Source of the DNA: Saccharopolyspora gloriosae
GTDB lineage: Bacteria > Actinomycetota > Actinomycetes > Mycobacteriales > Pseudonocardiaceae
Direction: 5' to 3'
NCBI RefSeq assembly: GCF_022828475.1
Contig: NZ_CP059557.1
Location: 5,317,470 to 5,381,469 of the forward strand
DNA length: 64,000 bases
Shown: piece after piece, positions 38,246 through 54,588 of the stretch
Position numbering within the stretch: position 1 is the stretch's first letter
Layout of the letters: each line of letters starts with the position of its first letter
Translations under genes and position numbers: made by a program
Notes under the pieces: generated by a model
What the model was told of the DNA's origin: nothing
The model's input: the letters and a program-made list of their open reading frames with translations, nothing else
Databases searched by the model: none

Positions 38246-38414
38246 GCCTGGCGCTCCCCTCCTCGACCAGTACTCGACAGGGTGAGCGCCAACCGAGTGG
38301 CCCGCTCGCCGCAGCGGTGACGGGTGGCGGTATCCGTGGGTCCACGGGTCGATAAAGGATCGACTATCGACACCCTCGGATAGCAGACACGTACGCAGCG
38401 TTATCTTGTACCTC

Positions 38415-39377
38415 GTGCCTGAAGACCTGTCGCTGTTCGACGCAGCATCGACCGAATCACCAGCAGAACCATCTGGCGAAACCGCGCTCGACGACGATGC
38501 TGGGCTCCGTGAGGTCGTGGACTGGTTCCGCGCCCAGGGCGACCTCGAAGATCTCTTCGGCTCGGTGTTCCGCCAATCCATCGACGAGGTTCTGGACGGG
38601 CAGCGGACCGGACGCTACGACATCGACGGCGTGACCAAGACGGAGAAGACTTACCTGGGCACGAAGGTGGAGATCGTCACCAAAGCGACCTTCGAGCTTG
38701 AACCGGGCACGAAGATGGACTACCGAATCGAGGGACACGAGGTCGATGCGAAGTTCTCACTGACCTCCCAGTGGCAAATTCCTAGCGAAGCCATGGGCCA
38801 TCTTTGCTTGCTGATGGCCGCCAGCGAGCGACAGCGAACCTTCGAAGCCGGCGTCTTGCGCATAACCGAGGACCTGCTTAACAGTGGGCGCAACAAGGAC
38901 CAGAAAGCGACGATCTCGAGTGCCGCCAGGAAGAAGATCATTTGGCTGTGCCACCGCAGTCCGATGCCTCCCAACATCCTCCTGACGCTGCCGACCGACC
39001 TGGCAGAACGGATCACCAAGCAGACGTCGGGACAGCGGCGGATCAACGAGCTCTTCCGGATCGAACAAGGGCGCGTGATCGACCGGAACACGGCGCTCAC
39101 GGTCTCGATGCAGGCCGACGGCCTCAAACGCTGCCGGGACGCTCGTTCCCAGCTGCGAGATGAAGGGATCGTGGTGCTCGGGCACCAGAAGGACTCCCCC
39201 AGGATCGCTCGAGACCTCGAACTCCCGGTGCCGGAGAAGGGAACTTTCGTTTCCACACGCCTGGTCCCTGTACCTGCCGACACTACCGATCGGAACATCA
39301 CCAGAATCAACGGCGGGTACTACGCGCGCGCGGAGCCTGACGAGCCCGCATCACCGGCGCCGACCATCGACTACTGA
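38415..39377 (+). CDS. NaeI-family type II restriction endonuclease
   Basis: The 320-residue protein lines up with R.NaeI (317 aa) with a constant offset of 16 in the catalytic domain. LDGQRTGRYDIDG and KTEKTYLGTKVEI match strongly. The metal and catalytic residues E70, D86, D95 and K97 of NaeI correspond to E86, D102, D111 and K113 here. The C-terminal topoisomerase-like domain is clear (RINELFRIEQGRVIDR, EGIVVLGHQKDSP). NaeI cuts GCCGGC after binding a second site. Identical specificity here is probable but not proven. GTG at 38415 fits a leaderless transcript from a TATCTT box at 38402-38407. TTG at 38406 is the alternative. Confidence 0.93.
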   Translation: MPEDLSLFDAASTESPAEPSGETALDDDAGLREVVDWFRAQGDLEDLFGSVFRQSIDEVLDGQRTGRYDIDGVTKTEKTYLGTKVEIVTKATFELEPGTKMDYRIEGHEVDAKFSLTSQWQIPSEAMGHLCLLMAASERQRTFEAGVLRITEDLLNSGRNKDQKATISSAARKKIIWLCHRSPMPPNILLTLPTDLAERITKQTSGQRRINELFRIEQGRVIDRNTALTVSMQADGLKRCRDARSQLRDEGIVVLGHQKDSPRIARDLELPVPEKGTFVSTRLVPVPADTTDRNITRINGGYYARAEPDEPASPAPTIDY

Positions 39378-39430
39378 ACTACCCGATCAACCAGCCTCAG
39401 CCCGCACGGCGCAGTTCCTCGCCGGCGGAG

Positions 39431-40216
39431 TCAACCGACCGAAGCGCGCATCGCGGCGCCGGCATCTGAGATGCGCCCGGACTCCTGCAACTGCAGTGCC
39501 AGTCGTATGACTTGGCGTTCGGGCTGCTCCCTGCCGTAGAGCTGGAGGAGTGTCTCGGCGAGGCTATGCTCCTCCCTGCCCCTGAACGCCGTCACGCAGG
39601 TCGCGACCGCCGGGGCGTCCAGCCGCTCCGGGATTTCCGCGATCAGCGCGAGCGCGTCCTCTTGCCTGCCGTCCGCGAGCGCTCCAGCGGCCTTCTCCGT
39701 TAGCTCGTCAACGGCGGCGGCGAGTTCACTCCGCTGCCGGTCCCCCTCGAACAAGGGGACCGGCAACTGTGCAGGCGTTGCGCTTGCCGACAGCGGAAAC
39801 CGAACATCAATGTGGAATTTGTGACACGACTTTGCCTGTTTCTCCAGTTCACGGACACGGCGCACATGACCGGCGCATGCGGGGCAGCGCGCGTCCTTCG
39901 CCTTCCAGTACAAGCTCTCAAGCTCCTCGGCTGTGATGCCGACGGCATCGGCACCCGCGTCCTCGCAAGCAAGGTCACGCAAGGCTGAGACCAGGCGATA
40001 TTCCGGGAATATGTCGCCACTCAGGACCTTGGAGAGCGTGCTGCCACCCATGCTGTAGCCATAGCCCCTTTTCAGGCGGTCGACGATTACGACCAGCGTC
40101 TGCCGCCTCCCCGACCCCAGGTGGCTACAGAAAAGTTTGAGCTGGTCAACCAGCTCGCGTCGCTCCTTCGAAAGACCTTCTCTGATGCGCCGCCCCACAT
40201 CACCTGCTGCTGGCAT
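39431..40216 (-). CDS. Putative HTH regulator with a CxxC motif, defence-locus associated
   Basis: The 261-residue product starts with a helical domain. The segment STLSKVLSGDIFPEYRLVSA looks like the recognition part of an XRE-type helix-turn-helix, of the kind found in many actinomycete regulators. RCPACAGHV follows near residue 115 and could be half of a zinc site. A heptad-like helix comes next, then a C-terminal helical repeat region (about 150-260). The function is not known. It is convergent with the endonuclease gene and divergent from the three-gene module, so it could act as a controller of either. The ATG at 40216 has AAGGG 7 nt upstream. A start at 40243 is possible. Confidence 0.7.
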   Translation of the reverse strand: MPAAGDVGRRIREGLSKERRELVDQLKLFCSHLGSGRRQTLVVIVDRLKRGYGYSMGGSTLSKVLSGDIFPEYRLVSALRDLACEDAGADAVGITAEELESLYWKAKDARCPACAGHVRRVRELEKQAKSCHKFHIDVRFPLSASATPAQLPVPLFEGDRQRSELAAAVDELTEKAAGALADGRQEDALALIAEIPERLDAPAVATCVTAFRGREEHSLAETLLQLYGREQPERQVIRLALQLQESGRISDAGAAMRASVG

Positions 40217-40418
40217 ATTCCAACCCTTTTCAGTGTCGCCCATCCTTCGCCGGTCATTCGCCCCGCGGAGTCATCTTGCCACTTTGAGAGAAAGATGATC
40301 AGGGCTTTGAAAACCTTCGACGCACGGTGTAGACCTGATTCAGCAAAGCGATCCCTGCGGCGACGTATTCCTGTCGTCGCGGACCAGTCCTTGATACCCA
40401 TGCAAAGAGGAGCGACCA

Positions 40419-41117
40419 ATGGATCGTCCATTGTGGACCGACAGGACGTACGGCAGCATGGTTCGCGCAGCGCTTTGGCTCGAGTCCGAGGTCGGAGAAG
40501 GGAACATCTTCAGCAAGAAGCAGCTGCGAGACGCCTTTCCCGAAGTGGCGCAGATCGACCGGCGTGTGCGGGATTTGCGCGATCGCGGCTGGCGGATCGA
40601 CACGAGCCGCGAGGACCCATCCTTGCGCCAGGAAGAACAGCGCTACGCCAGAAAAGGCGAAGACGTCTGGCTTCGCAACCGCGGAAAGTCCGCGGCCACG
40701 GGAAGCCTGACGGCATCCCAGCGGACCAAGATCATGGCTGCCGACAACCACCTGTGCCGATCCTGCGGAATGGCAGCCGGTGACTTCTACGACGGCGGAG
40801 TCATGAGCGCGCAACTCGACGTGGCCCGGCGCCGCATCACGCTTGCTGATGGGTCGACCGAGATCCAGCTGATCACCGAATGCAACCGCTGCCGAGTAGG
40901 AGGCCGAGGCAAGGACGCCGACCCGGCCAAGGTGCTCGACGCCTTGGACTTCCTCGCTCCCCTCGAACGTCAGATCTTCGCCGGCTGGGTGAAGGCAGAT
41001 AATCGCAAGCTCAACGGGATTGAGAAGCTCTGGGGCCTGTACCGGGCTCTCCCGGAGGAGTCGCGCACGACTGTGAAACGCGCGGTTGCCCCCTACGACC
41101 AAGCTGCTGGGAAGTGA
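40419..41117 (+). CDS. HNH-like zinc-finger protein of the defence module
   Basis: The 232-residue protein has an N-terminal helical domain, about 1-90 (winged-helix-like pattern FSKKQLRDAFPEVAQIDRRVRDLRDRGW). A zinc-knuckle region follows, built from CRSC (about residues 113-116) and CNRCR (about 154-157). This spacing and NHLCRSC...LITECNRC resemble an HNH endonuclease fold, but no histidine stands in the usual catalytic places, where AQLDVARRR is found instead. It may bind DNA without cutting it or use other residues. The ATG at 40419 has AGAGGAG upstream. The stop overlaps the ParB-domain gene start (GTGA). No exact family is recognised. Confidence 0.75.
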   Translation: MDRPLWTDRTYGSMVRAALWLESEVGEGNIFSKKQLRDAFPEVAQIDRRVRDLRDRGWRIDTSREDPSLRQEEQRYARKGEDVWLRNRGKSAATGSLTASQRTKIMAADNHLCRSCGMAAGDFYDGGVMSAQLDVARRRITLADGSTEIQLITECNRCRVGGRGKDADPAKVLDALDFLAPLERQIFAGWVKADNRKLNGIEKLWGLYRALPEESRTTVKRAVAPYDQAAGK

Positions 41118-42547
41118 CGATGCTGCGCGAATTCCCTCCGCCGCCCCGTGCGGACGAGATCAGCAACCTGATCAAGAAACGCCTGGCCGAAGCACGTGAA
41201 TCCGGCGGCGTGCGCGAAACCGTCACCGTCGACTGGAACCAGCAACCGCTGCACGTCGAGGTCCTCGAGCTACCGCTGAGCGAGCTGTTCTTCAACCCCG
41301 CCACGCACCGCATTCGCGCCCAGCGCAGCCATGACCCGGAACGCGACAAGGCCCTCGACAACGATCCCTACAGCGAGAGCAGCCAGGAGTACTTGAAGTT
41401 CCTGCTCCAGGCCGAGCCGGCGAATCCCGCCGTTCGCGATCCGAACTTCGACCACCTCAAGGAAAGCCTGCACGAGTTCGGGCAGAACGATCCGGGCTTG
41501 ATCACCTACCACGGCATCGTCGTCAACGGCAACACACGTGCGGCCGCGCTGCGCGAGATCGGTGCGCAATCCATGCGCGTCGGCATTCTCCCGGAGTCGT
41601 TCACCTGGGCGGACATCAACGCAGTCGAGTTGTCGCTCCAGCTGCGCAAAGATCACCGGCGCGAGTACTCATACATCAACCGGTTGCTCGCGATGGAGGA
41701 ACAAGCCGCTCTGGGCAGAACTCCGGAAACCATCGCCAAGGAGTTCCGCATCCGCGTGAACACTCTCCAGCAGGAGAGGTGGATTCTCGGCGTCATCCGA
41801 GATCTGATCGAGCGCAGCAAGACCGAGTATGGCGCATCGCTCGAGCTCATCGACTTCGAGGACCACCAGGAAAAGTTCAAAGAGCTGCACCGCGCTCACG
41901 AGAAGCTGGCGGCCTCCGACCCGGATCGGGCCGAGGTTTTCAAGGAGACTCGACTTTCCTCGATCATGCTTGGCTTCGCCAAGACCGACGTGCGCCACAT
42001 CGAGGATGGCAGCTTTCCAGATACGTACCTCCAAGACGCGCTGCCATCGCAGTTGAATCCGCACGGTTCGGCCGAGGACGCCGTTTCGATCCCAGGCTTG
42101 GGCATGGCTATTCCTGGCGCGTCGTCAGCGGTTTCGTCAGCTCGCGCCCTCAGTGATCGGGTGCTCAGGGCCAAGGCCACGGCTAAAGCCGTCTCCGCCG
42201 AAGTCGGGGAGGACGAGAAGAAGGATGCGCAAGCCACTTTTGACCAGTTGAAGGTCTCCTTCGACAGCGCTATCGACAAGGCTGGCCGGGACATGCGAGT
42301 TCGGAAGCGCAAACAGCTGGCACCCGCCCGACTCGTGGACGCCTGCGCGGATATCGACCAATGCGTCGTGGAGCTGGTGCAGGCGCGGGCCGCACGCGCG
42401 CTGGACGAAGAGGCCTTCGACGACGCGGTGGTGAAGCTGCGGGACAGCGTGCGCAAACTGGCCCAGCAGGCCGGCCGGGGCATTTCCAATCCGGGCGATG
42501 GCGTCTCGTGGCTGCTCGACGCTGCAGCCAGCAGGGGCGTTTCATGA
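41114..42547 (+). CDS. ParB-domain protein of the defence module
   Basis: The 477-residue protein carries a ParB/sulfiredoxin-type domain at about residues 45-160. LPLSELFFNPATHRIRAQRS is the entry and VVNGNTRAAALREIG is the nucleotide-binding GNxR-type motif (G-x-x-R in ParB). The middle has a helix-turn-helix-like segment, TPETIAKEFRIRVNTLQQ. The C-terminal half is helical and charged with coiled-coil character. It is coupled to both neighbours by GTGA and ATGA overlaps. A nucleotide- or DNA-sensing role is inferred. In other defence systems (for example SspE, DndB-like proteins) such domains read modified DNA, but I cannot assign that here. Confidence 0.82.
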   Translation: MTMLREFPPPPRADEISNLIKKRLAEARESGGVRETVTVDWNQQPLHVEVLELPLSELFFNPATHRIRAQRSHDPERDKALDNDPYSESSQEYLKFLLQAEPANPAVRDPNFDHLKESLHEFGQNDPGLITYHGIVVNGNTRAAALREIGAQSMRVGILPESFTWADINAVELSLQLRKDHRREYSYINRLLAMEEQAALGRTPETIAKEFRIRVNTLQQERWILGVIRDLIERSKTEYGASLELIDFEDHQEKFKELHRAHEKLAASDPDRAEVFKETRLSSIMLGFAKTDVRHIEDGSFPDTYLQDALPSQLNPHGSAEDAVSIPGLGMAIPGASSAVSSARALSDRVLRAKATAKAVSAEVGEDEKKDAQATFDQLKVSFDSAIDKAGRDMRVRKRKQLAPARLVDACADIDQCVVELVQARAARALDEEAFDDAVVKLRDSVRKLAQQAGRGISNPGDGVSWLLDAAASRGVS

Positions 42548-44379
42548 CAGAAGTCGTCGGCGAAACATCCCTCCAACTCGGGTTCGATGAGACGCGGACC
42601 AAAGTGGTGCTCGCGACGGTCGAGAACCACCGGGGCGACCTCGCACAGCTCTCCGCCCGGTTCCGGACCGGCGCCCAGATCGGTCCGCACACCGTTTCGG
42701 TCGATCTGGACGATTTCCTCACCAGGCTCGGCACGATCAGTGCCTGGCCGCATCCGGCAGGCGTGGCATGGGCTGCGGACCTCCGGGAGCTGGTCCGCAG
42801 CAACATCCAGGACTCAGCCACAGTGCAAGCCAGGCTCAAAGCACCGGACGCACCTGAAGACATCACCGCAGACGACGTGCCAGCACTCCTCGGGACAGAT
42901 TGGACCGCTGACCTGACGGAGTTCCAGAGCAGGGACATCGCGAAACTGCTGGCACTCCAGCACGGAGCGAACTTCAGCGTGCCCGGGGCAGGAAAGACGC
43001 GCGTGGCGCTAGGCGTCTACGCAGCGGAAAAAGCCCGTGGAAATGCGAAGCGGTTGCTCGTGGTCTGCCCGAAATCAGCTTACGAGTCCTGGCAGTTCGA
43101 GACGGGGGCGTGCTTCCAGAACCCACTGCGGACGTACGTCTTCGAGCGCTCACTCGACCAGTGGGCCGAGGTTCTGATCATCAACTACGAGCGGCTGGAA
43201 CGTTCGCTCGGCACGCTTGCAAGCTGGCTCAAGGCCGCCCCTTCGATGGTCGTCCTCGACGAAGCACACCGGATGAAACTGGGCAGCCGTGGAGCTTACG
43301 GGCTGGCCTGCATGACACTCGGTCCGCTTGCGCGCCGTCGGCTGATCCTCACTGGAACACCGGCGCCCAATGGCGCGAAAGACCTCGAAAACCTCATGGG
43401 GTTCGTGTGGCCGGGACACGGCCACCGGACAGTGTCCTCCGCGGTGTCCGATGGAGATCTCACCTACGCGAGCAGCGTCCTGCGGCCACTGTTCACCAGG
43501 ACGACCAAGCCCGAATTGGGACTTCCTCCGATGACCTCCGTCGTCCGATACCTAGACATGCCACCCCTGCACGAGGAGATCTACAAATCTCTGCTCGGCG
43601 ACGTTGCCGGCAACACTGCGCGCGATGACCTGAGCGCGCTGGGCAAGACTGCGTTGCGCCTTCTGATGGCAGCGACAAGTCCTGCGCTCCTGCTGGAAGG
43701 GGCGAGCAAGCACGAGCCACTGGCGTACCGGCTTCCGCCGCTGGAGATCCCGCAGGGTGACTCGCTGCACACCCTCGTGCGCGACCTGCCCAGCTACGAG
43801 ATGTCACCGAAGTACAAAGAAGCTGCCGCGATCGTCTCCGCGAACGCGGCCGAAGGGCGCAAAACCCTGGTCTGGACGACATTCGTACGGAGCCTGACGA
43901 CCTTGGAGCAGCTCCTGGAGCAATACCAGCCTGCGGTTGTGCACGGAGGGACGTTGGATCGCGAAGAACAGCTCAGGCGGTTCCGGGAGGACCCGGACTG
44001 CCACGTCCTCGTTTCCAACCCGGCGACCCTCGGCGAGGGAATCAGCCTTCACCAGGTGTGCCACGACGCTGTCTACGTGGATCGGGACTTCATGGCAGGC
44101 CGTTTCCTGCAAAGTCTCGACCGCATCCACCGCCTCGGGCTCGCGCCAGGGACTGCAACCCGCGTCACCGTCCTCGCCGCGCGTGACACTGTCGACGAAG
44201 TGGTGCACGCGCGCTTGGATCAGAAGCTCGAGTTCATGGGCAAGGTCCTTGACGACCCGTCAGTCCAGCAGCTCTCCGATCTGCAAGAAGAACCCTCGGT
44301 CGCGGGCGGCCTGGACTCCAGCGATGTCCAGGCTCTGCTGCGGCACCTGGACGCGACGCGCTCGAGCGCTAATCGTTGA
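42544..44379 (+). CDS. SNF2-family DEAD/DEAH helicase of the defence module
   Basis: The 611-residue protein is a two-lobed superfamily 2 ATPase. Walker A is SVPGAGKTR (lysine about residue 151), with PGAGKT in place of the usual DMGLGKT. Motif Ia is LLVVCPKSA, motif II VVLDEAHRMK (DEAH, about 236), motif III LILTGTPAPNG, motif V SNPATLGEGISLH and motif VI QSLDRIHRLG. About 120 N-terminal residues form a separate domain of unknown type. SNF2 enzymes translocate along double-stranded DNA. It is the last gene of the coupled trio and is followed by a strong hairpin terminator. No nuclease motif is visible in this protein itself. Confidence 0.88.
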   Translation: MTEVVGETSLQLGFDETRTKVVLATVENHRGDLAQLSARFRTGAQIGPHTVSVDLDDFLTRLGTISAWPHPAGVAWAADLRELVRSNIQDSATVQARLKAPDAPEDITADDVPALLGTDWTADLTEFQSRDIAKLLALQHGANFSVPGAGKTRVALGVYAAEKARGNAKRLLVVCPKSAYESWQFETGACFQNPLRTYVFERSLDQWAEVLIINYERLERSLGTLASWLKAAPSMVVLDEAHRMKLGSRGAYGLACMTLGPLARRRLILTGTPAPNGAKDLENLMGFVWPGHGHRTVSSAVSDGDLTYASSVLRPLFTRTTKPELGLPPMTSVVRYLDMPPLHEEIYKSLLGDVAGNTARDDLSALGKTALRLLMAATSPALLLEGASKHEPLAYRLPPLEIPQGDSLHTLVRDLPSYEMSPKYKEAAAIVSANAAEGRKTLVWTTFVRSLTTLEQLLEQYQPAVVHGGTLDREEQLRRFREDPDCHVLVSNPATLGEGISLHQVCHDAVYVDRDFMAGRFLQSLDRIHRLGLAPGTATRVTVLAARDTVDEVVHARLDQKLEFMGKVLDDPSVQQLSDLQEEPSVAGGLDSSDVQALLRHLDATRSSANR

Positions 44380-44430
44380 CGCCACGATGAGCCGCGGCTC
44401 GTGGGCCGGGAGGCGCGCTCGAGGCAAGTA

Positions 44431-44462
44431 AACGCCGGACTGACTTGTGTCAGTCCGGCGTT
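44431..44462 (+). terminator. Strong hairpin terminator after the helicase gene
   Basis: AACGCCGGACTGAC (44431-44444) and GTCAGTCCGGCGTT (44449-44462) make a perfect 14-bp stem around a 4-nt loop. It lies 52 bp past the helicase stop and 69 bp before the end of the convergent vsr gene, so it may serve both. Confidence 0.85.
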
Positions 44463-44530
44463 CGGCTAGTCGCCTGTGCCGATCAGTCCGCCGAATCACC
44501 ACATAGTGGCAGCCAAGCTGCGAGACGTCG

Positions 44531-45019
44531 TCAGCCCTTACGGCTACTATCGCTTTCATGTTCGATAGCCGTGATCGCAAGCTCAACCGCGGTTGCCAGC
44601 TGTTCGTGCTCCCAGATCCGAAGCACCTGCCAGCCAGCACGTTCCAGGGCGGCCGTCACTGTCCGGTCGCGCTCCACGTTCCGTGCGAGTTTGGGCGTCC
44701 AGTACCAGGCGTTGGACGCGGGCTGGCGTCCGTGTTCCGGGCAGGCGTGCCAGAAGCAGCCGTCGATGAAGATGGCTACCTTGCGCGCGGTGAAGACGAT
44801 GTCCGGCTTGACCCGGACTCCTTCATCCAGCGACAGCCGATAATCCTTGCGATAGCGGTAGCCCCGCTTATGGAGCTCGCTTCGGAGCGCGACTTCCGGC
44901 TTGGTATCGCTGCGCCGGTTCGCCCTCATGTTGCGAGAGCGGCCTTCGCTGGCCGGCGCGGGGTACAAGCCCCTCTCATGGGCTGTCTCCCGCGCCCTTC
45001 GACGATCACTCGCAGACAT
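44531..45019 (-). CDS. vsr: Very short patch repair (Vsr) endonuclease
   Basis: The 162-residue protein is a clear Vsr nickase, which starts repair of T:G mismatches made when 5-methylcytosine deaminates. NRRSDTKPEVALRSEL opens the fold. VKPDIVFTARKVAIFIDG contains the catalytic aspartate. GCFWHACPEHG has the active-site and zinc residues. NVERDRTV, GWQVLRIWEHE complete it. The presence of Vsr implies that the local methyltransferase makes 5-methylcytosine. It is divergent from that gene across a 101-bp promoter region. I chose the ATG at 45019. An upstream ATG at 45070 lies in the intergenic region without support. Confidence 0.94.
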   Translation of the reverse strand: MSASDRRRARETAHERGLYPAPASEGRSRNMRANRRSDTKPEVALRSELHKRGYRYRKDYRLSLDEGVRVKPDIVFTARKVAIFIDGCFWHACPEHGRQPASNAWYWTPKLARNVERDRTVTAALERAGWQVLRIWEHEQLATAVELAITAIEHESDSSRKG

Positions 45020-45120
45020 GCTCACCAGACCAGTAATGCCGTCCAACGGGGCCAAGTGGCCATGGGGCAAGATACCCGCTTAGCCAGTCGCGTCGCGCGC
45101 ACCCAGAAGGAGGAGACACC

Positions 45121-46362
45121 GTGAACGAGAGCTTCACCGCGGTGGAGATCTGCGCCGGCGCAGGTGGCCAGGTCCTTGGCCTGCACCAGGCCGGGTTCAA
45201 GCACGAGGTCGCAGTCGAGTTCGACAGCAATGCCTGCACCACATTGCGCCACAACGACATCACCCCCGTAGCCGAGGGTGACGTCGCTGATAGCTCTGTC
45301 TGGGATCCGCGCGACTACGAAGGCGTGTCGTTGCTGGCCGGAGGAGTCCCGTGCCCTCCGTTCACCATCGCTGGCAAGCAGCTCGGCGCGAACGACGAGC
45401 GGGACTTGTTTGCCTGGTCAGTTGAGCAGGTGGACAAGGTCCGGCCGCGAGCGCTCCTGCTGGAGAACGTCCGAGGCCTGAGCATGCCCCGCTTCGCCGG
45501 CTATCGGCAGCACGTCCTGGACCGGTTGGCCGACTCCGGTTACGTCGGCGAATGGCAGCTCTTGCAAGCTTCGGACTTCGCCGTACCCCAGCTGCGACCA
45601 AGGTTCGTGCTAGTGGCGCTGAAACCTGAGGACGCAGAATTCTTCCACTGGCCAAAGCCGGACAAGTTCGACCCCGCGCCTACCGTTGGCCAAGCGCTCT
45701 TCGATCTCATGGGCGATTGGAAAGGCGCCGATGACTGGAAGGGACACGCCGACAAGATCGCTCCAACGATTGTCGGCGGTTCCAAGAAGCACGGCGGTGC
45801 AGACCTGGGGCCGACCCGGGCGAAACGTGCCTGGGCTCAAATGCACGTGGATGCGATGGGCGTCGCAGACGCCCCTCCTGCTCGTGACGACGAATTTGCG
45901 ATCGGCCCCAAACTCACCTGTGACATGGTGCAGGTTCTACAAGGCTTCGAAGGCCGATATGACTGGTCCTTTACCGGCAGGAAGACCTCGCGCTACCGGC
46001 AAATCGGGAACGCGTTCCCGCCACCTGTCGCTCATGCGGTTGGCAACGCCATTCTGAAGGCCTTCCGCAGGGAAGGGCCGCGGCGGGAAATCAGGCCCAG
46101 CGCTCAGGATCCGGTGTACCGCGCACTCGCCGAGGCGAACGACTTCTTGTCAGCAGCCAAACTGACCCGCCTCGCCGGAACCACGATGGGCACGTCGCAG
46201 CTCGAGCGTCACATCAGCATGCTCAGCAAGGACTTCGACATCGAGGTGGCAACCCGCGGCCAGACCACGAAGTACAAGCTAGGAAGCTTCAACGCCTTCG
46301 TCGGCCAAGAAGCCCACAGCCGACACGAAGCGTTCCTGAAGAACCGAGCCAAGATCAGCTAG
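45121..46362 (+). CDS. DNA (cytosine-5) methyltransferase, partner of the NaeI-like enzyme
   Basis: The 413-residue enzyme has the ordered C5-methyltransferase motifs: I, AVEICAGAGGQVLGLHQAGF; IV, GGVPCPPF with catalytic Cys78 (PCP rather than the usual PCQ); VI, LLENVRG; VIII, QLRPRFVLVA; X, YRQIGNAFPPPVAHAVG. The target-recognition region between VIII and X is short. An extra C-terminal helical domain of about 100 residues follows motif X (from about 315), with a winged-helix look. It should protect the host genome from the NaeI-like endonuclease 6 kb away. The GTG start follows GGAGGAG. It is divergent from vsr. Confidence 0.93.
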   Translation: MNESFTAVEICAGAGGQVLGLHQAGFKHEVAVEFDSNACTTLRHNDITPVAEGDVADSSVWDPRDYEGVSLLAGGVPCPPFTIAGKQLGANDERDLFAWSVEQVDKVRPRALLLENVRGLSMPRFAGYRQHVLDRLADSGYVGEWQLLQASDFAVPQLRPRFVLVALKPEDAEFFHWPKPDKFDPAPTVGQALFDLMGDWKGADDWKGHADKIAPTIVGGSKKHGGADLGPTRAKRAWAQMHVDAMGVADAPPARDDEFAIGPKLTCDMVQVLQGFEGRYDWSFTGRKTSRYRQIGNAFPPPVAHAVGNAILKAFRREGPRREIRPSAQDPVYRALAEANDFLSAAKLTRLAGTTMGTSQLERHISMLSKDFDIEVATRGQTTKYKLGSFNAFVGQEAHSRHEAFLKNRAKIS

Positions 46363-46411: not shown

Positions 46412-48670
46412 TCACCACCGTGGGTATCGGTGGATCCAGCCTTCCTGGGTGTAGGCGTTGTTGTAGGGATTTCGGGTGCTGAAGTGCCAGAAGGCGTCGT
46501 CGGCGATCTCTTGGACGAGGTCGCCGATGTCGAGAGCTTCGAGCCAGTCGTTCGGCAAACCGACCACTCCGGCTCTGGCACCGATCAGTGCGCCGGTGAG
46601 CGCAGTAGCCATGGCACTGCCCGTGTAGTTGGCCGCGATCAGCAGAGCGCGGCGCGGGTTCGCTCCGTGCCGGGACGCGATCAGCAGTGCCTGTGCCAGC
46701 ACGGACGAGGTGCTTACGCCGTCGCCGAGTTCCTTGATGTCTTGAAGATCGTCGCCGAAGATCCTCTTCCAACGCGTGGACACGTGTTTGAGGAGCCCGG
46801 CGATGTTCCGTGACTCCGGGGAGTCCAATCGTTCGTACTGCTCAAGGAGCTTCTCCAGTTGAGACCAGACCGGGTGCACAAAGGCTTTGCGCAGGAACAG
46901 ATTCCGGAACAGGTCGGACACTGCGCCGGCCGCTGCGGCATCGGCCGGGGAGCGTTTCCAGCCCGTGGCGAGCGCCCCCGCCCCCCAGGTCGACACTGCA
47001 CCGGGCAGCCCCCACATCGCCATGATCGGGCCGTTGAGTGAGTTTTCCTTGCCCGGGTCCGATACCAGGTTCTGCACCTCTGCCAGCAACCCGCCCTGCA
47101 GGCCACGCCGGAAGTGCATTTCAGGAACTTTGAGCAAGAATCCGCCGGGGTCGGGGTGCGTCGTGGCTAGTGGCCCCGCGGCCTGCTGCCATGGGACTCC
47201 TTGGGCGGTCAGCCAACGAGCGTGCGCGGACCTGGTTGCCAGCGGCAGGTTCTCGAAACGTTCATCGCCTGCGTAGCGCAAGCCTCGCACTGCCCCTTCA
47301 GTGAGGAACAGCAGCAGCTGAGTCCGCCAGCTCACCTGTCCGGGGCGCTCGAACGCGGTTTCCAAACCGGTGATGCCGTTCGCACCGAACCGTTGGCGAA
47401 CCTCATCCCAGTTCAAACCGTGCACCGCGGACCCCAGCGCGTCACCGATCGCGAAACCGGCGAAGGCGCCGGTCACTGCGTGCCAGGAGAAGTCCGCGCC
47501 GGAATCACTCGCACGCGGCTGGGTACCGAAAGTGGAGATCGTGGGGCGCAGCCGGCCGCCGTCATCATGGACTGCGACCAAGCCGTTGGCGTGCAGGTCC
47601 GCCGGCCAGCGGTCCCGCGAGAGGTCGGCGTCGGAGGTCGGCCGTCCACCTGGCCGGCTTCGCGGGCTTGTCACGGGCGGGTTCGATGTCGCCCACGCCA
47701 ATCCGAGCAGCATCCGCTGACGCTGCTCGCCGGAGAGGTCACTGCCACTTGCTCGCGCGCCGACGATCCACGAGGTCGGGACCGATGGCGGCTTCTCAAG
47801 ACCGAAGTGCTGCTGGAGCTGCCGGGCGTACTCGTCGAGGGATCCGTCCGGGCCGATCTCGCTGACGACCCGCGGTTCGCCTGGCTCACGTCCAGGATTG
47901 GCGGCGATCAACTCAGCGATCTCAAGTGCTGTGACGTGCGCACTCGGAAAGTGATCGGAGTTGATCGACATACCGGACCCGGGAAATCGTTCGATGAAAC
48001 CGGGAACCGTTATCCGCAGCCACTTGCAGGACTCCGGAATCTTCCGAGGCGAGCTGTACACGTGCATGACCGCACCACTGGCCACGGGTTGCTCGCTGTT
48101 CCAGTCCAACGGCACTAGGACCACGGTATCCAGTAGGGAAATCAGGAATTCGTCTCGGCCGATGTAGTTCATGCTCAGGAAGTTGAGGAGCGCTTCGAGC
48201 GGGTTCTGCGATTTCGGCATCCCAGCTCGTTCCGGACCGATCTTGTAGCCCGGATTCACCTTTTCCTGGACACTTCCATCCGGCAGCGTGATCTTCCAAC
48301 CCGCCACGAATCGATTCGGAACGCCGAGGCTGTAGAAGCCCATCGAGCGGTACTCCGGGTCGATGATCTCCGTGTACTGCGGTTCACCGGGCCAGGCGAC
48401 GGGCGTGGAGAAACCGGGCTGCGGCGTCGTGTTCGCTTGCCGCAATGCGCCGTCCGGGTCAGTCACGATGAACACCGGCGGCGGGAAGATCGATTTGCTG
48501 AGGTCGCCGCCGTCGAGGAACTCCGCGGTATTCCACGGAACCGCCCAGCCCTCCGGAACCCGGCTGACGTGCTCGTGATCGACCCGGACGTCGAGCGGTT
48601 CGCCGTTCGCTTCCGCATTGGAGCGCAGCCACCGTTCGACGAGCTCGGTTGCGTCCGCCTGCTCCACCAT
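46412..48670 (-). CDS. Immunity protein: Imm35/YrhB, SseB-like and degenerate ADP-ribosylglycohydrolase domains
   Basis: The 752-residue protein has three parts. A YrhB/Imm35-like domain occupies about 1-85 (RVPEGWAVPWNTAEFLDGG). An SseB-like domain follows at about 155-255 (DEFLISLLDTVVLVPLDW to HVTALEIAELIA). The C-terminal part is an ADP-ribosylglycohydrolase fold, about 390-752 (GAFAGFAIGDALGSAVHG). The two magnesium motifs are lost. Where the family has WTDDT, this protein has SWRTQ (about 446). Where it has NxxGDSDTxG, it has NYTGSAMATA (about 680). It should therefore bind rather than hydrolyse. The start overlaps the toxin stop (TAATG), the normal place for an immunity gene. Confidence 0.85.
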   Translation of the reverse strand: MVEQADATELVERWLRSNAEANGEPLDVRVDHEHVSRVPEGWAVPWNTAEFLDGGDLSKSIFPPPVFIVTDPDGALRQANTTPQPGFSTPVAWPGEPQYTEIIDPEYRSMGFYSLGVPNRFVAGWKITLPDGSVQEKVNPGYKIGPERAGMPKSQNPLEALLNFLSMNYIGRDEFLISLLDTVVLVPLDWNSEQPVASGAVMHVYSSPRKIPESCKWLRITVPGFIERFPGSGMSINSDHFPSAHVTALEIAELIAANPGREPGEPRVVSEIGPDGSLDEYARQLQQHFGLEKPPSVPTSWIVGARASGSDLSGEQRQRMLLGLAWATSNPPVTSPRSRPGGRPTSDADLSRDRWPADLHANGLVAVHDDGGRLRPTISTFGTQPRASDSGADFSWHAVTGAFAGFAIGDALGSAVHGLNWDEVRQRFGANGITGLETAFERPGQVSWRTQLLLFLTEGAVRGLRYAGDERFENLPLATRSAHARWLTAQGVPWQQAAGPLATTHPDPGGFLLKVPEMHFRRGLQGGLLAEVQNLVSDPGKENSLNGPIMAMWGLPGAVSTWGAGALATGWKRSPADAAAAGAVSDLFRNLFLRKAFVHPVWSQLEKLLEQYERLDSPESRNIAGLLKHVSTRWKRIFGDDLQDIKELGDGVSTSSVLAQALLIASRHGANPRRALLIAANYTGSAMATALTGALIGARAGVVGLPNDWLEALDIGDLVQEIADDAFWHFSTRNPYNNAYTQEGWIHRYPRW

Positions 48671-51600
48671 TACGGCTTCCTCCGCTGCTCGTGCCCGGAC
48701 ATGTTCCCGCCCGGGGTGTTCAGCCACGACCTTCCAGCGGGAGTTGGTGTCCAGCTCTGGGTGTTGCTGTCGTATGTACCGAGCACCCGCTCGGTTCCGC
48801 CGAGGTCTTCGATCACGATTTCCGCGCTTCCGATGAATTCTCCCCCGCTGAGGTCGCCCTGTTCGGAGAGGCCCCCGGGGTTCGCTGCGGAAGGCACTTC
48901 GCAGCGGAGTTTCATCCGTTGCTCAACGCCGGAGAATTCGTCGAAGCTGACCGGCCCAAGATCGGGCAAGCTGGTGCTGCGGAACAATGACTGCCGTCCG
49001 TCTCCGGTCAGCAACTCGGTAGGTTCGTGGTTTCCGAGGTACTTCACCGCGAGGTCCGCGGGGATGGCCTGCTCCCGTTCATAGATGATCCCACTCGTTG
49101 CCCCGGCAAGCCACGGCCGACGATCGGAATCCGACCTGGATCTCGCACCGCCCGCGCCAGGTCCGACTCCGGGGAGACCGCCGGAAGCCTCCGATCCGCT
49201 CGATCCCGCGCTGCCTCCGCTGGTCGCGCTACCGCCAGCCGAGCCGGGTTGGGCGCCGGTCTCCCCCGGGACCGCACTGCCTGCTGGGGCATCCCGCAGC
49301 GGCGGCATCGAGGCGGGCGCACCCTGCCCCGCGGCGGGGGAAGAACTGCTCGGCGTGCTCCCCGCTGGGTTTCGCGGCAGGTCCGCAGTGGTAGCCGGAC
49401 CGGCCGAGTTCGTGGGCGACGACGGATCGAGCGTGCCGTTGAACGATCGGTTCAACGCTCCGGCGCCGTCCGTTGCAGGCAAGCTCGGCAGTTCCGAGAT
49501 CTCCGGCGCCTCGATCGAGCCCCGCGCGGCCGGCGCGGCCGGGGGAACCTGACCGACGGGCATCGGCTCTGGACCAGCGTTAGGCGCTGGGTTGTCGTGC
49601 TGCCCCGCCGGAGAGATTCCAGGCGGACGAGTTCCAGCAGAAGGCATGAAACCCGGCTGAGCAGGCGGAAGTGGCCTTTCCTCCTCTTCATCCTCACCCG
49701 GGAACGACGGCCGGAAAGGGTTCGTGTGCTGCCCGAACCACGGCCCGTCAGGGCGACGAGCCCGGGAATCCCCGTCATCCACCTCAGCAAGTTCTGGTCG
49801 TGCCTCCGGCTCGCGGGAGTCCGAACGGAGATCGGCTTCGGTCTCGAGGCGGTTGTCGGAGTCCGGTCGCTGCCCATCCGGCTCGGCGCGCGAGGTTCCT
49901 ACGCCCTCCCCTGCCTGCGGGAGCGAACCGAACGGCAGCAGGGTGAGGCTCCGCGGCGGGTGCGGCAATGTCATCAGCCGTCCGGTCTGCGGATCGATGA
50001 ACGCCACCCCGTCCGGGGTGTTCGTGACCATTGCGACGTGACCGAGGGGCACCGGCCCGTTCATGTACTGCACACCGATCACTGCGTGCGAACCGACGGG
50101 TTCCTTGCTCATCCGCTCGATGATGCTGTCGTAGCTGCGGTGACTCTCCCAATCTCCGCCGAGACGCCGGTCGATGTAATCGAGCCGCCCCTTGGTCGCC
50201 AGCTCGCTCGGCAACACCGGTTCTGCCTGTGCGTCGATGCCGCCCAGCCGCTGTGCATAGCTGACGACGCACCTGGTGCAGTTGGTCAGGAATCCGCGGT
50301 CGTAGGCATCCGGCTGACCGGCGTTCGGGTTGACCTCGCCGAGTTCGGGATGCCGGTCGGCGACGTAAGCTGCCTGATGGTCCGGATGTGCCGTACCCGC
50401 GTGGAGCGAAGGCAGTTCGGTGACGGGCGGCGTGCTGGACGCGAGCTGCTTCCAGTCCGGCAAACCGTTGGCGTCGCTGGGAAGCTGTGGTGCTCCGTAA
50501 GGATCTCCCGAATCGGGGTCCGGCAAGGCTGGCGCTCCCGCGTGCGGGGCATCTGCGGACAGCGCGTTTTCGATCTTGCTCGGCTCGCTGGGTCGTTCCG
50601 CATCTTCCTTCTGGTCCTGCGCACTCCCGGTACCGGACGATTCTTCCGCCCGGGTGCGCTCGCAGCGGTCCTCCATGCGCCGGTCAACCTCAGCGCGGTC
50701 CAGGTAACGCGGATCCCCCGGGGCGATCTCTTCAGCGTGGATGATCCACTTCTCGACGACCTGGCCGCTTTTGGTCGTCTCGGATACCAATTCCTTGCTG
50801 TGCACAAGCAGCTGCGAGCCCGGCAGCAGAACTGCTTCCCGTTCACCGGGGTTCATGGCGAGTTCCTGCAACCGCCGCGCCGTCTTCGACTCGATCCGCA
50901 GGTCGATGTCGCCCGGAATCGCGGCGTCTGGCGCGTCCGGATCCGTCATCGAGCAACTGGTCAAAGCGGTCTCGACGGTGATCTGCCCGGGTTCGTAGTG
51001 CCCGGCGATCAAGTCGCGGCGAGCTAAGTCCCCGTGCGAGTTGATGCCGCGGGCCAGCGGTCCCTCGACCCGCGGCAACTCGTTCATCCCGGACACGATC
51101 GCCTGCAACTGCTTGCGCTTCGCAGTGTTGAGCTCGCCGGAACGGCTGGCAGCGTTGATCGGCCCGAACACCTCGTGGGTCGAGTAAGAATGCGCCGCTA
51201 TCGCGCCGCGCAAGGAGATCCCGCCCAGTTCGGGAAGCTTCTTCGCCAGCTGCCGTTCCATGAGATCGAGCCGGGTGGTTTCGACTCGGCGCTCATCGTC
51301 GAAAACTTCCACCCTCGCCAAGCGCGCTTCCAACGCCGCGAACGACTGTGCGGGAGCCCGGTATTCCGGATCGAAGCAGAAGTCCAGGTTCCCTGGCTGC
51401 GACAGCGCTGCGGGCTCCGCCGCCTCGCCCGGCACGTCCTGATGATCGGCTTTTGCAGCCGATTCCGGCTCCGGCTGAGGATCGGTGGGGGTGGACTGAT
51501 CTGCGTCCATCCACTCCGAATCCGGGCTTCGCCCATCGTCAGCGATCCCTTGATCTTCTGGGATCTCGGTGCCGGAGGTATCCGGAGACTCAGCACGTGC

Positions 51601-54258
51601 GGGTTCAGGCTGAGCCACCTCGGCCCGGGCAGGCTCGGGATGCGGCGATCGTTGCGGTCCCGGTGACGGCTGGGCACCCTGCGGCGCCTGATTCGCGTCG
51701 TAGTCGGAGCTCTGCGGATCACCGATGCTGCCCTGCTGCTCCGGCACGGCGCGAGGCGTCTCCCGAGCGGGTCGGGCAGCCGGCGCTTCGGGCATTCCAC
51801 CCGAAGTCCGCGGGCCAAGCTGTGCGGGCTGGTGCACCGGGCCGTGTCCTGGCATGGCTGTGGGGCCGCCCGGTCGGCGACCGTCAGGGAAAGGTGGTTG
51901 CGTCGATCGTGCGGGGTGCTGCGGCGGCTGGTTCTGCGGGAATGCAGGCGGTGCGGGCCGGGCCTGCTGCGGAGGCCGATTCGGCGGGACTGCTCCCGGC
52001 TGACGCGGGGCGCCTTGCCCCGGTCCTGGAGCGGCGTTCGGGTTGGCCTGCGGCATGCCCTGTTGCGGCCGTCGCCCAGCGGACGGGGCTCCTTGCGGTG
52101 GTGCCGGATGCCCGCCGTGCTGCGAGAACCCGCTAGGAGGACGGAAATCGCCGTGCTGGTTCGGCTGCACTGGCGGGCCACCGCGATGTGCCGGGGCAGG
52201 CCCACCGGGAGTCCCCGGCTGCGGCTGGGTGGCGAACGGCGTCGGAGCCGAATTCTGCGCGGCTGTCTGCTGCGGCCCGGGGCTCCAGCCGTTGCCCGTG
52301 CTCGCCTGGTGCGTCGACCGGCCGAGATTCTCGGGTACCTGCCCGGCCATACCTGGCTGCAGACCGTGGTTCGGCCCGGCAGGTGGGGCGATGTTCGGAG
52401 TGACCGGGCCGCCATGCATCGGCCCGTGCGGACCGCTCGGGCGCGGCTGGCCGTGGCTCGGATTCGGCGGGCCGCCGGGCATCGCGGCTGGCGGGAACTG
52501 GTGTGGTGCTGCGCCGGTGTTCGGCCTGCTGTGCCCGGGGGCCATGTTCGGCGCGCCTGCCTGCTGCGCACCTTGCTGTGCGGGGAATCCGCCGCGCGGT
52601 CCCCGGCCGTCCGGCTGCCCGCCCGGTTGCTGCGGACCTCGCTGGTCCAGTGCGGCGAACGGAGGATGTGCACCCTGGTTCGGCGGGAAACCACCTCGGC
52701 CCGCCGCACCACCGAGGTCACCACGTGCCGCAACAGGGCCGCCGGGTGCACCGCCTGGCGCACTTGCGCCGCCTGGCATGGGGCCGGCTCCCATTCCAGG
52801 CGTGCCCGGCGGAGCTCCCGACCCTGGCCCGCCCGGATGCGAATTTCCTTGCGCTCCAGGGTGTTGTCCGACACCGGGTGCACCGCCGAGTCCTCCTCCG
52901 GGCGCACCCGCCCCGTACGCCGCGTCGGAACGTTCTGCAGTGACCGCGGCGGATGCGGCGGTCGCGGAAGGCCCGTCAGGTGCTTCGCCAACACCCGAAC
53001 CGGCCTGGTCGCTCGCACTCCTTCCGAAGGGGCTTCCACCCGGATCAGCATCGGATGCGTTCGAGCCGCCGCCAGCGGCTGTGGACGGACCAGAACCGCC
53101 ACTGCTCTGCGTGGGTGCGTCTGCAGTGGACCCAGTTCCAGGTTCCTGGTCGCGGGCTGAACTTTCCTGCCCGTCGCTGGGCGGAACCGAATTCCCGGTC
53201 TCACCGCGCTCGCCGCTCACTTCCGCTGAACGAGCGCTTCCCGATTCACCTTCCGCGGCCGAGGCATCCACTCCGAGCTCCGGTACCGGGCCGACGGTCG
53301 GCTGCCCCGAGTTCGCCGCCGCGCTGAACCCGTCCTTCGCGCCTCCGATACCGCCGTCAACGGCCCCACCAGATGCGCCCATGAGCACGTCTTTGGCCGA
53401 GAGCTCCCCGAGATCGCCGGTGGCAGCTGCGCCCGCGACCGTCCCCAGCGCGCCTTCCGCCGCACCTTTCGCGGCGTGTCCCATGACGCTGCCGGGGCCG
53501 TGTCCCGGCCCGTTGACGAGGTGTCCGGCAAGCCCTTCCGCCGCACCGCCGACTCCTGCGTCAGTGGTCTTGTCCCAGTCCCAGGACTTGCGGTCCCCGG
53601 ATGCCATTTGCAGACCTTGAATGCCGCCGTCCAGCGCGAGCTGCGCACCGGAGTTCTTCGCGGCCATCCACCCGAGGTTCTTCAGCCCGTCCTTGCTGAC
53701 CTTCTGCACGAGCTCCTTGGCTGCTTTTTCCAGGGCTTCCTTCGCGACCTGCTTGACGCCCTGTTGCATCAGCTTCTGCACCAGCTGCCGGAAGATCATC
53801 TGCACGGCGGCGCGGGTGGCGAGCTGCGCGGGGACGATCCCTGCTGTTGTCGCGCCGAAGCTGGCGAAAGCGGCGGCGATCATCGCCGCAACCTGGATCG
53901 CGAGCAGGATCAGCGAAGCGATGATCAGGTATTTCGTGTACTCGACGTCGAGCGCGGTTCGATCGCACGACTCCGCGAGCTGCTCGCATGCCTGCTCGAT
54001 CTGGCGGAACTGGGCCTTGTCCCCGTCGGTGAGCTGTGCCCAGAACTGGGCGAACGCGTCCGCGGACTCACCTTGCCACCCGGCGAGCACGTCCCGGGTT
54101 GCGGCATCACCGGTCGCAGCAGCCCCCGGCATGGCTTGCCCTGCCGCTGTCCATGCGTCCCGCAGTGCGCGGAGCTTGTCCTCGTCGCCTTCCGGCCAAC
54201 TCTCACCGACGACGATGGGCAACAACCACTTGACCTCGTCGGGAATGTCCATGCCCAT
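48670..54258 (-). CDS. Type VII-secreted polymorphic toxin with ADP-ribosyltransferase and papain-fold domains
   Basis: The 1862-residue protein starts with a WXG100-like/CpnT-type domain (about 1-105) and hydrophobic helices (LIIASLILLAIQVAAMIAAA, about 110-130). A glycine- and proline-rich linker of some 600 residues follows. An ADP-ribosyltransferase domain lies at about 965-1170, with ARGINSHGD (R), TALTSCSMTD (STS-like) and NPGEREAVLLPGS (ExE, about 1140). A papain-fold domain resembling toxin glutamine deamidases spans about 1310-1430, with NCTRCVVSYA, PLGHVAMVT and FIDPQTG as the Cys-His-Asp set. A second proline-rich linker leads to a C-terminal domain (about 1725-1862) that I do not recognise. 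Genes for a WXG partner precede it and the immunity gene follows. Confidence 0.88.
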   Translation of the reverse strand: MGMDIPDEVKWLLPIVVGESWPEGDEDKLRALRDAWTAAGQAMPGAAATGDAATRDVLAGWQGESADAFAQFWAQLTDGDKAQFRQIEQACEQLAESCDRTALDVEYTKYLIIASLILLAIQVAAMIAAAFASFGATTAGIVPAQLATRAAVQMIFRQLVQKLMQQGVKQVAKEALEKAAKELVQKVSKDGLKNLGWMAAKNSGAQLALDGGIQGLQMASGDRKSWDWDKTTDAGVGGAAEGLAGHLVNGPGHGPGSVMGHAAKGAAEGALGTVAGAAATGDLGELSAKDVLMGASGGAVDGGIGGAKDGFSAAANSGQPTVGPVPELGVDASAAEGESGSARSAEVSGERGETGNSVPPSDGQESSARDQEPGTGSTADAPTQSSGGSGPSTAAGGGSNASDADPGGSPFGRSASDQAGSGVGEAPDGPSATAASAAVTAERSDAAYGAGAPGGGLGGAPGVGQHPGAQGNSHPGGPGSGAPPGTPGMGAGPMPGGASAPGGAPGGPVAARGDLGGAAGRGGFPPNQGAHPPFAALDQRGPQQPGGQPDGRGPRGGFPAQQGAQQAGAPNMAPGHSRPNTGAAPHQFPPAAMPGGPPNPSHGQPRPSGPHGPMHGGPVTPNIAPPAGPNHGLQPGMAGQVPENLGRSTHQASTGNGWSPGPQQTAAQNSAPTPFATQPQPGTPGGPAPAHRGGPPVQPNQHGDFRPPSGFSQHGGHPAPPQGAPSAGRRPQQGMPQANPNAAPGPGQGAPRQPGAVPPNRPPQQARPAPPAFPQNQPPQHPARSTQPPFPDGRRPGGPTAMPGHGPVHQPAQLGPRTSGGMPEAPAARPARETPRAVPEQQGSIGDPQSSDYDANQAPQGAQPSPGPQRSPHPEPARAEVAQPEPARAESPDTSGTEIPEDQGIADDGRSPDSEWMDADQSTPTDPQPEPESAAKADHQDVPGEAAEPAALSQPGNLDFCFDPEYRAPAQSFAALEARLARVEVFDDERRVETTRLDLMERQLAKKLPELGGISLRGAIAAHSYSTHEVFGPINAASRSGELNTAKRKQLQAIVSGMNELPRVEGPLARGINSHGDLARRDLIAGHYEPGQITVETALTSCSMTDPDAPDAAIPGDIDLRIESKTARRLQELAMNPGEREAVLLPGSQLLVHSKELVSETTKSGQVVEKWIIHAEEIAPGDPRYLDRAEVDRRMEDRCERTRAEESSGTGSAQDQKEDAERPSEPSKIENALSADAPHAGAPALPDPDSGDPYGAPQLPSDANGLPDWKQLASSTPPVTELPSLHAGTAHPDHQAAYVADRHPELGEVNPNAGQPDAYDRGFLTNCTRCVVSYAQRLGGIDAQAEPVLPSELATKGRLDYIDRRLGGDWESHRSYDSIIERMSKEPVGSHAVIGVQYMNGPVPLGHVAMVTNTPDGVAFIDPQTGRLMTLPHPPRSLTLLPFGSLPQAGEGVGTSRAEPDGQRPDSDNRLETEADLRSDSREPEARPELAEVDDGDSRARRPDGPWFGQHTNPFRPSFPGEDEEEERPLPPAQPGFMPSAGTRPPGISPAGQHDNPAPNAGPEPMPVGQVPPAAPAARGSIEAPEISELPSLPATDGAGALNRSFNGTLDPSSPTNSAGPATTADLPRNPAGSTPSSSSPAAGQGAPASMPPLRDAPAGSAVPGETGAQPGSAGGSATSGGSAGSSGSEASGGLPGVGPGAGGARSRSDSDRRPWLAGATSGIIYEREQAIPADLAVKYLGNHEPTELLTGDGRQSLFRSTSLPDLGPVSFDEFSGVEQRMKLRCEVPSAANPGGLSEQGDLSGGEFIGSAEIVIEDLGGTERVLGTYDSNTQSWTPTPAGRSWLNTPGGNMSGHEQRRKP

Positions 54259-54261
54259 GCG

Positions 54262-54588
54262 TCAGATCCTTATGCCGCCGATGTCATCGGCGTTGCCTTG
54301 ATCGGTGGCCTGCGCGTCGTTGGCGGCCTCCTGCACCTGCTGCCGGAGTGACCGCAGCGTCTCGGTCAACGCCTTCATCGACTCGTTCATCAGGTCCGCT
54401 GTGGGCATGTAGTCCTTCGCGAAACCCTGGCCTGCTTCGTCCTCACCCCAGCAGGCACCCTGGGCTTGCAACTGCCGTTCCAGTTCCTGGTGGGCATCGT
54501 CGAGCTGGTCAGCCGCCACGTCGAACTTCGCAGCACCGGATCGGACCTGGTCCGGGTCCATCCGGGCACCGCCGCCGGGCGCACTCAT
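54262..54588 (-). CDS. WXG100-like type VII secretion partner protein
   Basis: The 108-residue all-helical protein has the WXG-type turn CWGEDEAGQGFAKDYMP near its middle, between two long amphipathic helices. These correspond to AAKFDVAADQLDDAHQELERQ (about 20-40) and LMNESMKALTETLRSLRQQ. Such proteins form dimers with, or next to, large T7SS effectors and guide them to the secretion channel. It lies 3 bp before the toxin gene and its ATG at 54588 overlaps the upstream gene's stop. No EccC/EccD core gene is in the window. Confidence 0.85.
   Translation of the reverse strand: MSAPGGGARMDPDQVRSGAAKFDVAADQLDDAHQELERQLQAQGACWGEDEAGQGFAKDYMPTADLMNESMKALTETLRSLRQQVQEAANDAQATDQGNADDIGGIRI

Follow-up and report, generated by a model that had tools for sequence, protein, structure and literature searches.

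The window analysed here is a stretch of 64,000 nucleotides (nt) from Saccharopolyspora gloriosae (contig NZ_CP059557.1, positions 5,317,470 to 5,381,469 of the forward strand), and it contains a restriction-modification locus in which three consecutive genes, called A, B and C, lie between a gene for a NaeI-like type II restriction endonuclease and a gene for a C5-cytosine DNA methyltransferase (MT). The features of the locus are listed in Table 1 with their positions in the window. An earlier note on this DNA had placed 5.7 kilobases (kb), occupied by a putative regulator, the trio and vsr, between the NaeI-like gene and the MT gene (39377 to 45121), and the open reading frames and strands agree with this layout. 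The 4-nt overlaps that it reported are present, with GTGA shared by A and B and ATGA shared by B and C, and so is the hairpin that it took for a terminator: the 54-nt stretch 44422-44475 folds at -34 kcal/mol (z -6.67), and none of 200 shuffled sequences was equally stable. The MT gene is the only PF00145 match in the genome, so the NaeI-like enzyme and the trio share it.

Table 1. Features of the locus, with positions in the window unless preceded by an L number, which designates another locus (aa, amino acids; bp, base pairs)
Feature	Position	Strand	Basis and remarks
NaeI-like type II restriction endonuclease (optional extra)	38406..39377	+	PF09126 1.6e-84; 199.5 bits against the NaeI structure 1ev7, in an alignment that includes the VDxK stretch; alternative GTG start at 38415 possible
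Divergent, fast-evolving regulator-like gene	39431..40243	-	helix-turn-helix by appearance only; no family match above cut-off
Gene A, winged-helix and zinc-binding protein, predicted to be a catalytically degenerate HNH protein, 232 aa	40419..41117	+	HTH_39, HNH_5 and HNH weak in the family; Arg at the catalytic His position
Gene B, ParB/Spo0J-like domain and following helix-turn-helix-like part, 477 aa	41114..42547	+	profile against 1vz0; PHROG ParB
Gene C, SWI2/SNF2 ATPase, signature ANFSVPGAGKT, 611 aa	42544..44379	+	PF00176 2.5e-16; Helicase_C 5.3e-07
Hairpin, probable terminator	44431..44462		perfect 14-bp stem, 4-nt loop, no T-run after it; between the convergent ends of C and vsr
vsr mismatch endonuclease	44531..45070	-	TIGR00632 161 bits; 1cw0 E 1.6e-15
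C5-cytosine DNA methyltransferase (MT)	45121..46362	+	PF00145 2.5e-52
Conserved protein of about 280 aa in other loci	L007:8057; L008:599; L009:8114; L010:8114; viral L106:7462		

The genomes of 84,980 species were scanned with an alignment of C, and at least 573 relatives were found, which makes C-family genes common; the best 80 were kept for the locus counts given below, all of them from Actinomycetota and 59 from Streptomyces, and being the best-scoring loci they are little informative on remote relatives. B lies directly before C in every one of the 80, its end no more than 6 nt from where C starts, with an overlap of 4 nt in 55 loci and of 1 nt in 15. A is also present in all 80, upstream on the same strand in 77 and divergently in three. 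Spacing between A and B is looser, with a median gap of 19 nt and gaps up to 148 nt for the gene starts that we chose in the relatives; an overlap of exactly 4 nt occurs in three of the 77, and the tight A-B overlap is particular to the copy in the window. A homologue of the regulator-like gene was found by phmmer divergently upstream of A in 53 loci, and its cluster is present in 69.

In a viral collection used as a control, B adjoins C in 26 of the 29 cases that score 165 bits or more with the C profile, a line set after the scores had been seen, and in none of the 50 others; as for the three exceptions, L126 reaches a contig end, L124 has a cut C frame with B further off, and L133 is without B. 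These viral pairs came through the scan with C, and the viral scan with B confirmed no relative. Sampling through B matched 12 plasmid or phage records, and C adjoins B in all eight that were opened. The same arrangement was found in two of three other genomes in an order sample, the third being a weak partial match, and in both of the other genomes in a phylum sample, where few genomes have B (3 of 396, counting the present one). One match to B (G100; E 4e-4, 77 aa) has no adjoining C and looks spurious. Pairs of B and C also occur on alphaproteobacterial and Bacillota plasmids and on viral contigs. A-B-C is a real and conserved unit, at the core of which B and C are tightly coupled, and the co-occurrence search thus bears out the view of the three genes as a single unit.

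The nearly constant partner of the trio is a C5 MT with vsr: within 9 kb, MT is found in 75 of the 80 loci and vsr in 76, and in this sense the trio does recur beside defence genes. NaeI is near 17 loci, a DUF3883-like cluster near 15 and NgoMIV near two, and in 44 loci A, B, C, MT and vsr are accompanied by no other recognised nuclease type; two of these 44 have an additional HNH-type gene of the A-like kind (L035 and, as a fragment, L032). Because NaeI is near 17 loci only and these 44 are without other recognised nuclease types, the trio is not an annex of NaeI, and NaeI, NgoMIV and NOV_C-like proteins are optional extras. The suggestion of the earlier note that the trio could extend the NaeI-like enzyme, or belong with it, is not supported by these counts, nor by those from the order sample, in which five of the six other NaeI genomes over the cut-off have no listed match to B.

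Genes flanking the 46 ABC-only loci, called with our own GC-frame heuristic, were scanned for a missed nuclease (148 of 172 genes, the 24 left out being second-nearest neighbours). Among the matches listed, which comprise 25 of 86 Pfam and 25 of 78 PADLOC families so that singly seen nucleases could be hidden, the only restriction enzymes are two NgoMIV (L026 and L069); PADLOC mad2 in three members and a second methyltransferase in one are also listed. These two NgoMIV-family enzymes (L026:3821-4591 and L069:11837-12625) replace NaeI beside the trio and a window-like MT, and the site of NgoMIV is GCCGGC, the same as that of NaeI, from which this sequence would be predicted as the target of the window-like MT clade.

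The assignment of C as an SNF2 helicase in the earlier note is upheld by its SNF2 domain match (Table 1). Helicase motifs are conserved in 11 of 11 first-aligned members, and the Walker A motif is unusual, being FSVPGAGKT, with FSVPGSGKT in two distant members; a FSVPGAGKT-type motif was found in all 80 later loci, partly by construction since the scan used the motif. By these motifs C is predicted to be an intact SNF2 motor.

For B no Pfam match was obtained, and among 45 members no Pfam family was matched by more than one. The profile of B matches Spo0J/ParB 1vz0 (E 1.9e-5) at positions 99-276, a range that takes in the ParB domain and what comes after it, and its matches to PHROGs ParB models reach 5.4e-8 at best. 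Other PHROGs matches are to one methyltransferase and one nuclease, all matches of B being partial and the ParB-type ones general, and a weak PADLOC methyltransferase model matches 22 of the 45 proteins (best 5.3e-5). The motifs by which ParB binds cytidine triphosphate are GxRR and ENxQR. In B, GNxR is kept, with N140 and R142 invariant in 45 members, and ENxQR is not kept, E172 and Q176 being invariant instead. With a ParB/Spo0J N-terminal domain recognised by profile, B is classed as ParB-like; the ParB domain claimed earlier is found again by the 1vz0 profile and PHROGs and has no counterpart in Pfam. Since nuclease or nucleoside triphosphatase (NTPase) activity is mentioned for ParB-family proteins in passages of PMC12839542 and PMC10853773, B is a candidate cutter.

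In A no Pfam HNH match was found, only HTH_39 with an E value of 0.002, below the cut-off, and the Pfam matches of its family are all weak (HTH_39 in 20, HNH_5 in six and HNH in four of 49 aligned members). Its HNH ancestry is evident from relatives, here called A', which carry an HNH-type motif and are 30-36% identical to A (six A' aligned), several of them showing GHxxPH...CxxCN. The catalytic His is present in eight of ten A', the exceptions having Arg (L072) and Leu (L035), and the Asn after the last CxxC in nine of ten. In A the position of the His is Arg in 83 of 84 copies, the remaining one being a gap in the truncated L054, so that all 83 readable copies agree, and the Asn is found in none of 83; the four zinc cysteines are retained in every A covering that region. 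A thus shares common ancestry with HNH restriction endonucleases and has neither their catalytic His nor their Asn. Because these residues are lost and the zinc cysteines kept, A is called a degenerate HNH protein, predicted to retain the fold and the DNA-binding parts and to have lost the cutting site, and it probably acts as a reader and not as a cutter. The earlier description of A as zinc-finger/HNH-like is therefore right for its ancestry, as relatives with an intact HNH exist, and wrong for its catalytic residues, which are gone. An active HNH nuclease was rejected for A on the His-to-Arg change in all readable copies, though an unusual active site is conceivable.

The A' genes also occur apart from B-C. 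In the phylum sample, three of the five other genomes with a full-length match to A have a relative without B-C, all three of the HNH-bearing A' type, and in fetched DNA such A' genes lie beside MT (L208:6414-7694), MT and vsr (L209:6422-7219) or vsr (L210:8637-9461). Cassettes of the form MT-A'-MT adjoin five trio loci (A' at L070:12994-13701, L072:13644-14426, L074:13563-14396, L077:13614-14423 and L081:6525-7415). With a winged helix and an HNH-type motif, and placed beside a C5 MT and/or vsr, the A' proteins have the look of a so far uncharacterised family of HNH type II restriction enzymes. In the simplest history, a C5 system would have had a winged-helix HNH restriction enzyme, which turned into a non-cutting component when the ParB/SNF2 pair took over its work.

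We regard A-B-C, with moderate confidence, as the effector half of a methylation-sensitive restriction-modification system dependent on adenosine triphosphate (ATP), in which the C5 MT would be the protective half and vsr would repair deaminated 5-methylcytosine. A would recognise its unmethylated target by means of the winged helix and the zinc fold and leave it uncut; B, as a ParB-like DNA- or nucleotide-binding protein, would couple A to C, and C would translocate on double-stranded DNA. Restriction of unmethylated DNA would follow, either through cleavage, with B itself or a recruited nuclease as the cutter (NaeI, NgoMIV or a NOV_C-type protein, in the loci that have them), or through a block without cleavage. 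The trio may have an anti-phage function, and that it works independently of methylation is unlikely. A more far-reaching version, of lower probability, is a new and widespread restriction machine in which the dead HNH reader marks unmethylated sites, B serves as a nucleotide-switched ParB-family clamp on DNA or as an unrecognised nuclease, and C, as an SNF2 translocase, supplies the power; such a machine would restrict without a classical nuclease or by a ParB-fold nuclease, and NaeI and NgoMIV would be later plug-ins on the same MT.

Several results weigh against the restriction reading. The cutting step is putative because A, B and C have no recognisable nuclease active site. In four of the 80 loci (L087, L091, L097 and L105) no MT was found in the fetched DNA, which in L087 and L105 ends less than 2 kb downstream of C. 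Distances of C and MT correlate, with the relatedness of the organisms uncontrolled, and the partial distance correlation of A with MT over 69 loci is mixed, with a value of 0.01 when C is controlled for (389 of 999) and of 0.11 when B is (17 of 999); on these values A was not adopted as a specificity subunit tracking MT. Avoidance of GCCGGC also gives the reading no support: 47 sites were found of 95 expected in the window and 121 of 239 elsewhere in the genome, and it was rejected as a functional trace since relatives without the genes are depleted too (0.17 to 0.70 in four same-family genomes without NaeI or B matches).

Two other sites are scarce in this genome. GGGCCC is nearly absent from eight 20-kb stretches of it (L213-L220; 2 sites against 45 expected), a hint of a further restriction pressure. 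CTCGAG is low in the same stretches (20 of 70); it is strongly depleted in 55 trio loci outside the clade of window-like MT, with 120 of 439 expected, against 161 of 280 where the MT is window-like (20 loci or stretches), and the values in same-genus genomes without a B match range from 0.14 to 0.64. Adjoining the restriction locus, at 46412-54591 on the minus strand, the gene for a very large proline/glycine-rich protein (1862 aa), its small neighbours and a downstream gene of 771 aa suggest, by eye only, a locus of the polymorphic-toxin type.

The restriction reading is further weakened, slightly, by the loci outside Actinomycetota, of which six of the seven that were opened carry a nuclease-type gene beside B-C or fused to it; the assignment comes from Pfam in three (NOV_C; BanI/DpnII-like; PLD and MutH) and from the record annotation as DUF3883 in three. 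Streptococcus phage Javan191 has a BanI/DpnII-like gene before B-C, in the position of A, and a NOV_C protein after it, in Rhizobium a NOV_C protein follows B-C, and annotated DUF3883 proteins follow it on three further alphaproteobacterial plasmids. In Lactiplantibacillus C carries a fused PLD domain and is followed by a MutH-like gene; in Enterococcus an unassigned protein of 860 aa precedes B-C. On four alphaproteobacterial plasmids and in the viral locus (Table 1), B-C is preceded by a protein of about 280 aa that is highly conserved and has invariant cysteines; two members scanned gave no Pfam match. These loci are the best argument for, and strengthen, the view that B-C, with A, is an accessory motor that assists ordinary nucleases, NaeI among them, in finding, processing or degrading DNA, without being a restriction system itself, and the NaeI, DUF3883-like and NgoMIV genes counted above fit it as well. 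Against it stand the 44 loci without a recognised extra nuclease of those types and the NaeI genomes without a listed B match, and NaeI-type enzymes are not known to need ATP. We hold this helper role to be unlikely, though it survives best among the alternatives.

Less probable still is a protective or regulatory role, in which the SNF2 remodeller, ParB and the dead HNH reader would clear or read the MT sites and so aid maintenance methylation or prevent self-cleavage. As a degenerate HNH relative A could occupy sites, and the correlation with MT fits protection as well as restriction; however, the 44 loci have no recognised nuclease to protect from, a large ATP motor would be an odd cost, and in Javan191 A is replaced by a nuclease-type gene. 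That the trio is an independent anti-phage unit, unrelated to MT and merely sharing a common defence island, is very improbable: it is favoured by the four loci without MT in fetched DNA and by an S. albidoflavus plasmid copy with no MT detected in the 19 kb around it (nor A), whereas MT is close in nearly all loci, its distances correlate with those of C, and two of the four stop shortly after C.

If the restriction reading is true, many Streptomyces carry a restriction barrier affecting transformation and phage resistance that the defence library tested here does not name. The loci form a natural series, from HNH-bearing A' with MT, through degenerate A with ParB, SNF2 and MT, to the same set plus NaeI or NgoMIV, and it would suit a test of how a simple type II system becomes ATP-driven.

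Among known systems, the earlier note had found no match for the trio, and we agree: no Pfam or NCBIfam model is matched by A or B above cut-off, nor any PADLOC defence model convincingly. The gene combination was not found described in open-licence PMC literature, and REBASE or subscription journals may describe it. C matches the SNF2 helicase models of DISARM (DrmD), Dpd (DpdE), Zorya (ZorD) and BREX (BrxH), but its scores are 41.7 of the 610 bits set as NCBIfam cut-off for DrmD and 26.1 of 500 for DpdE; A and B match no Drm model, B has no DpdB match, and no other component of these four systems is matched by A or B. GmrSD, SspE and BrxU, built of a DUF262 ParB-fold NTPase and a DUF1524 HNH part, resemble the trio in joining a ParB fold with an HNH fold and differ from it in that A and B match neither DUF262 nor DUF1524 and A is without HNH catalytic residues. 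The type IIE NaeI system, a NaeI-like enzyme with a neighbouring C5 MT, applies to the NaeI/MT pair and not to the trio, which with vsr lies between the two genes here and mostly occurs without NaeI.

The MORC and paraMORC operons are described in PMC2292703 as containing a SWI2/SNF2 helicase, an HNH or EcoRII-like nuclease, a cytosine methylase and Vsr, and an SNF2 ATPase, an HNH-family protein, a cytosine MT and Vsr are likewise together at the trio locus. The GHKL ATPase gene of these operons was not found among the seven window genes scanned; a GHKL-like gene, named by eye, is present in 10 of the 80 relatives. Neither ParB nor NaeI appears in the main text of PMC2292703. A table in PMC3710099 gives an operon of ParB nuclease and DNA methylase genes, and an SNF2 helicase-DUF3883 fusion in restriction-modification operons; in the passages covered, neither a pair of ParB with SNF2 nor a degenerate HNH partner is described.

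The nuclease of CglI and NgoAVII is an R protein of the PLD superfamily, unlike the degenerate HNH protein, ParB-like protein and SNF2-type motor of the trio, and no PLD domain was found by Pfam in A, B or C of the window, one being fused to C in L011. Their methyltransferase is of the C5 type. According to PMC4267653 and PMC5737866, these systems (and BceSIV) have an MT gene and a separate helicase-family ATPase whose ATP hydrolysis is required for nuclease cutting, and the trio locus likewise has such an ATPase (C, SNF2) and a DNA MT gene. CglI/NgoAVII is the nearest tested precedent, to which the trio would be comparable. We therefore think it rather probable that the trio is a variant of ATP-dependent C5 restriction-modification that is made of other parts.

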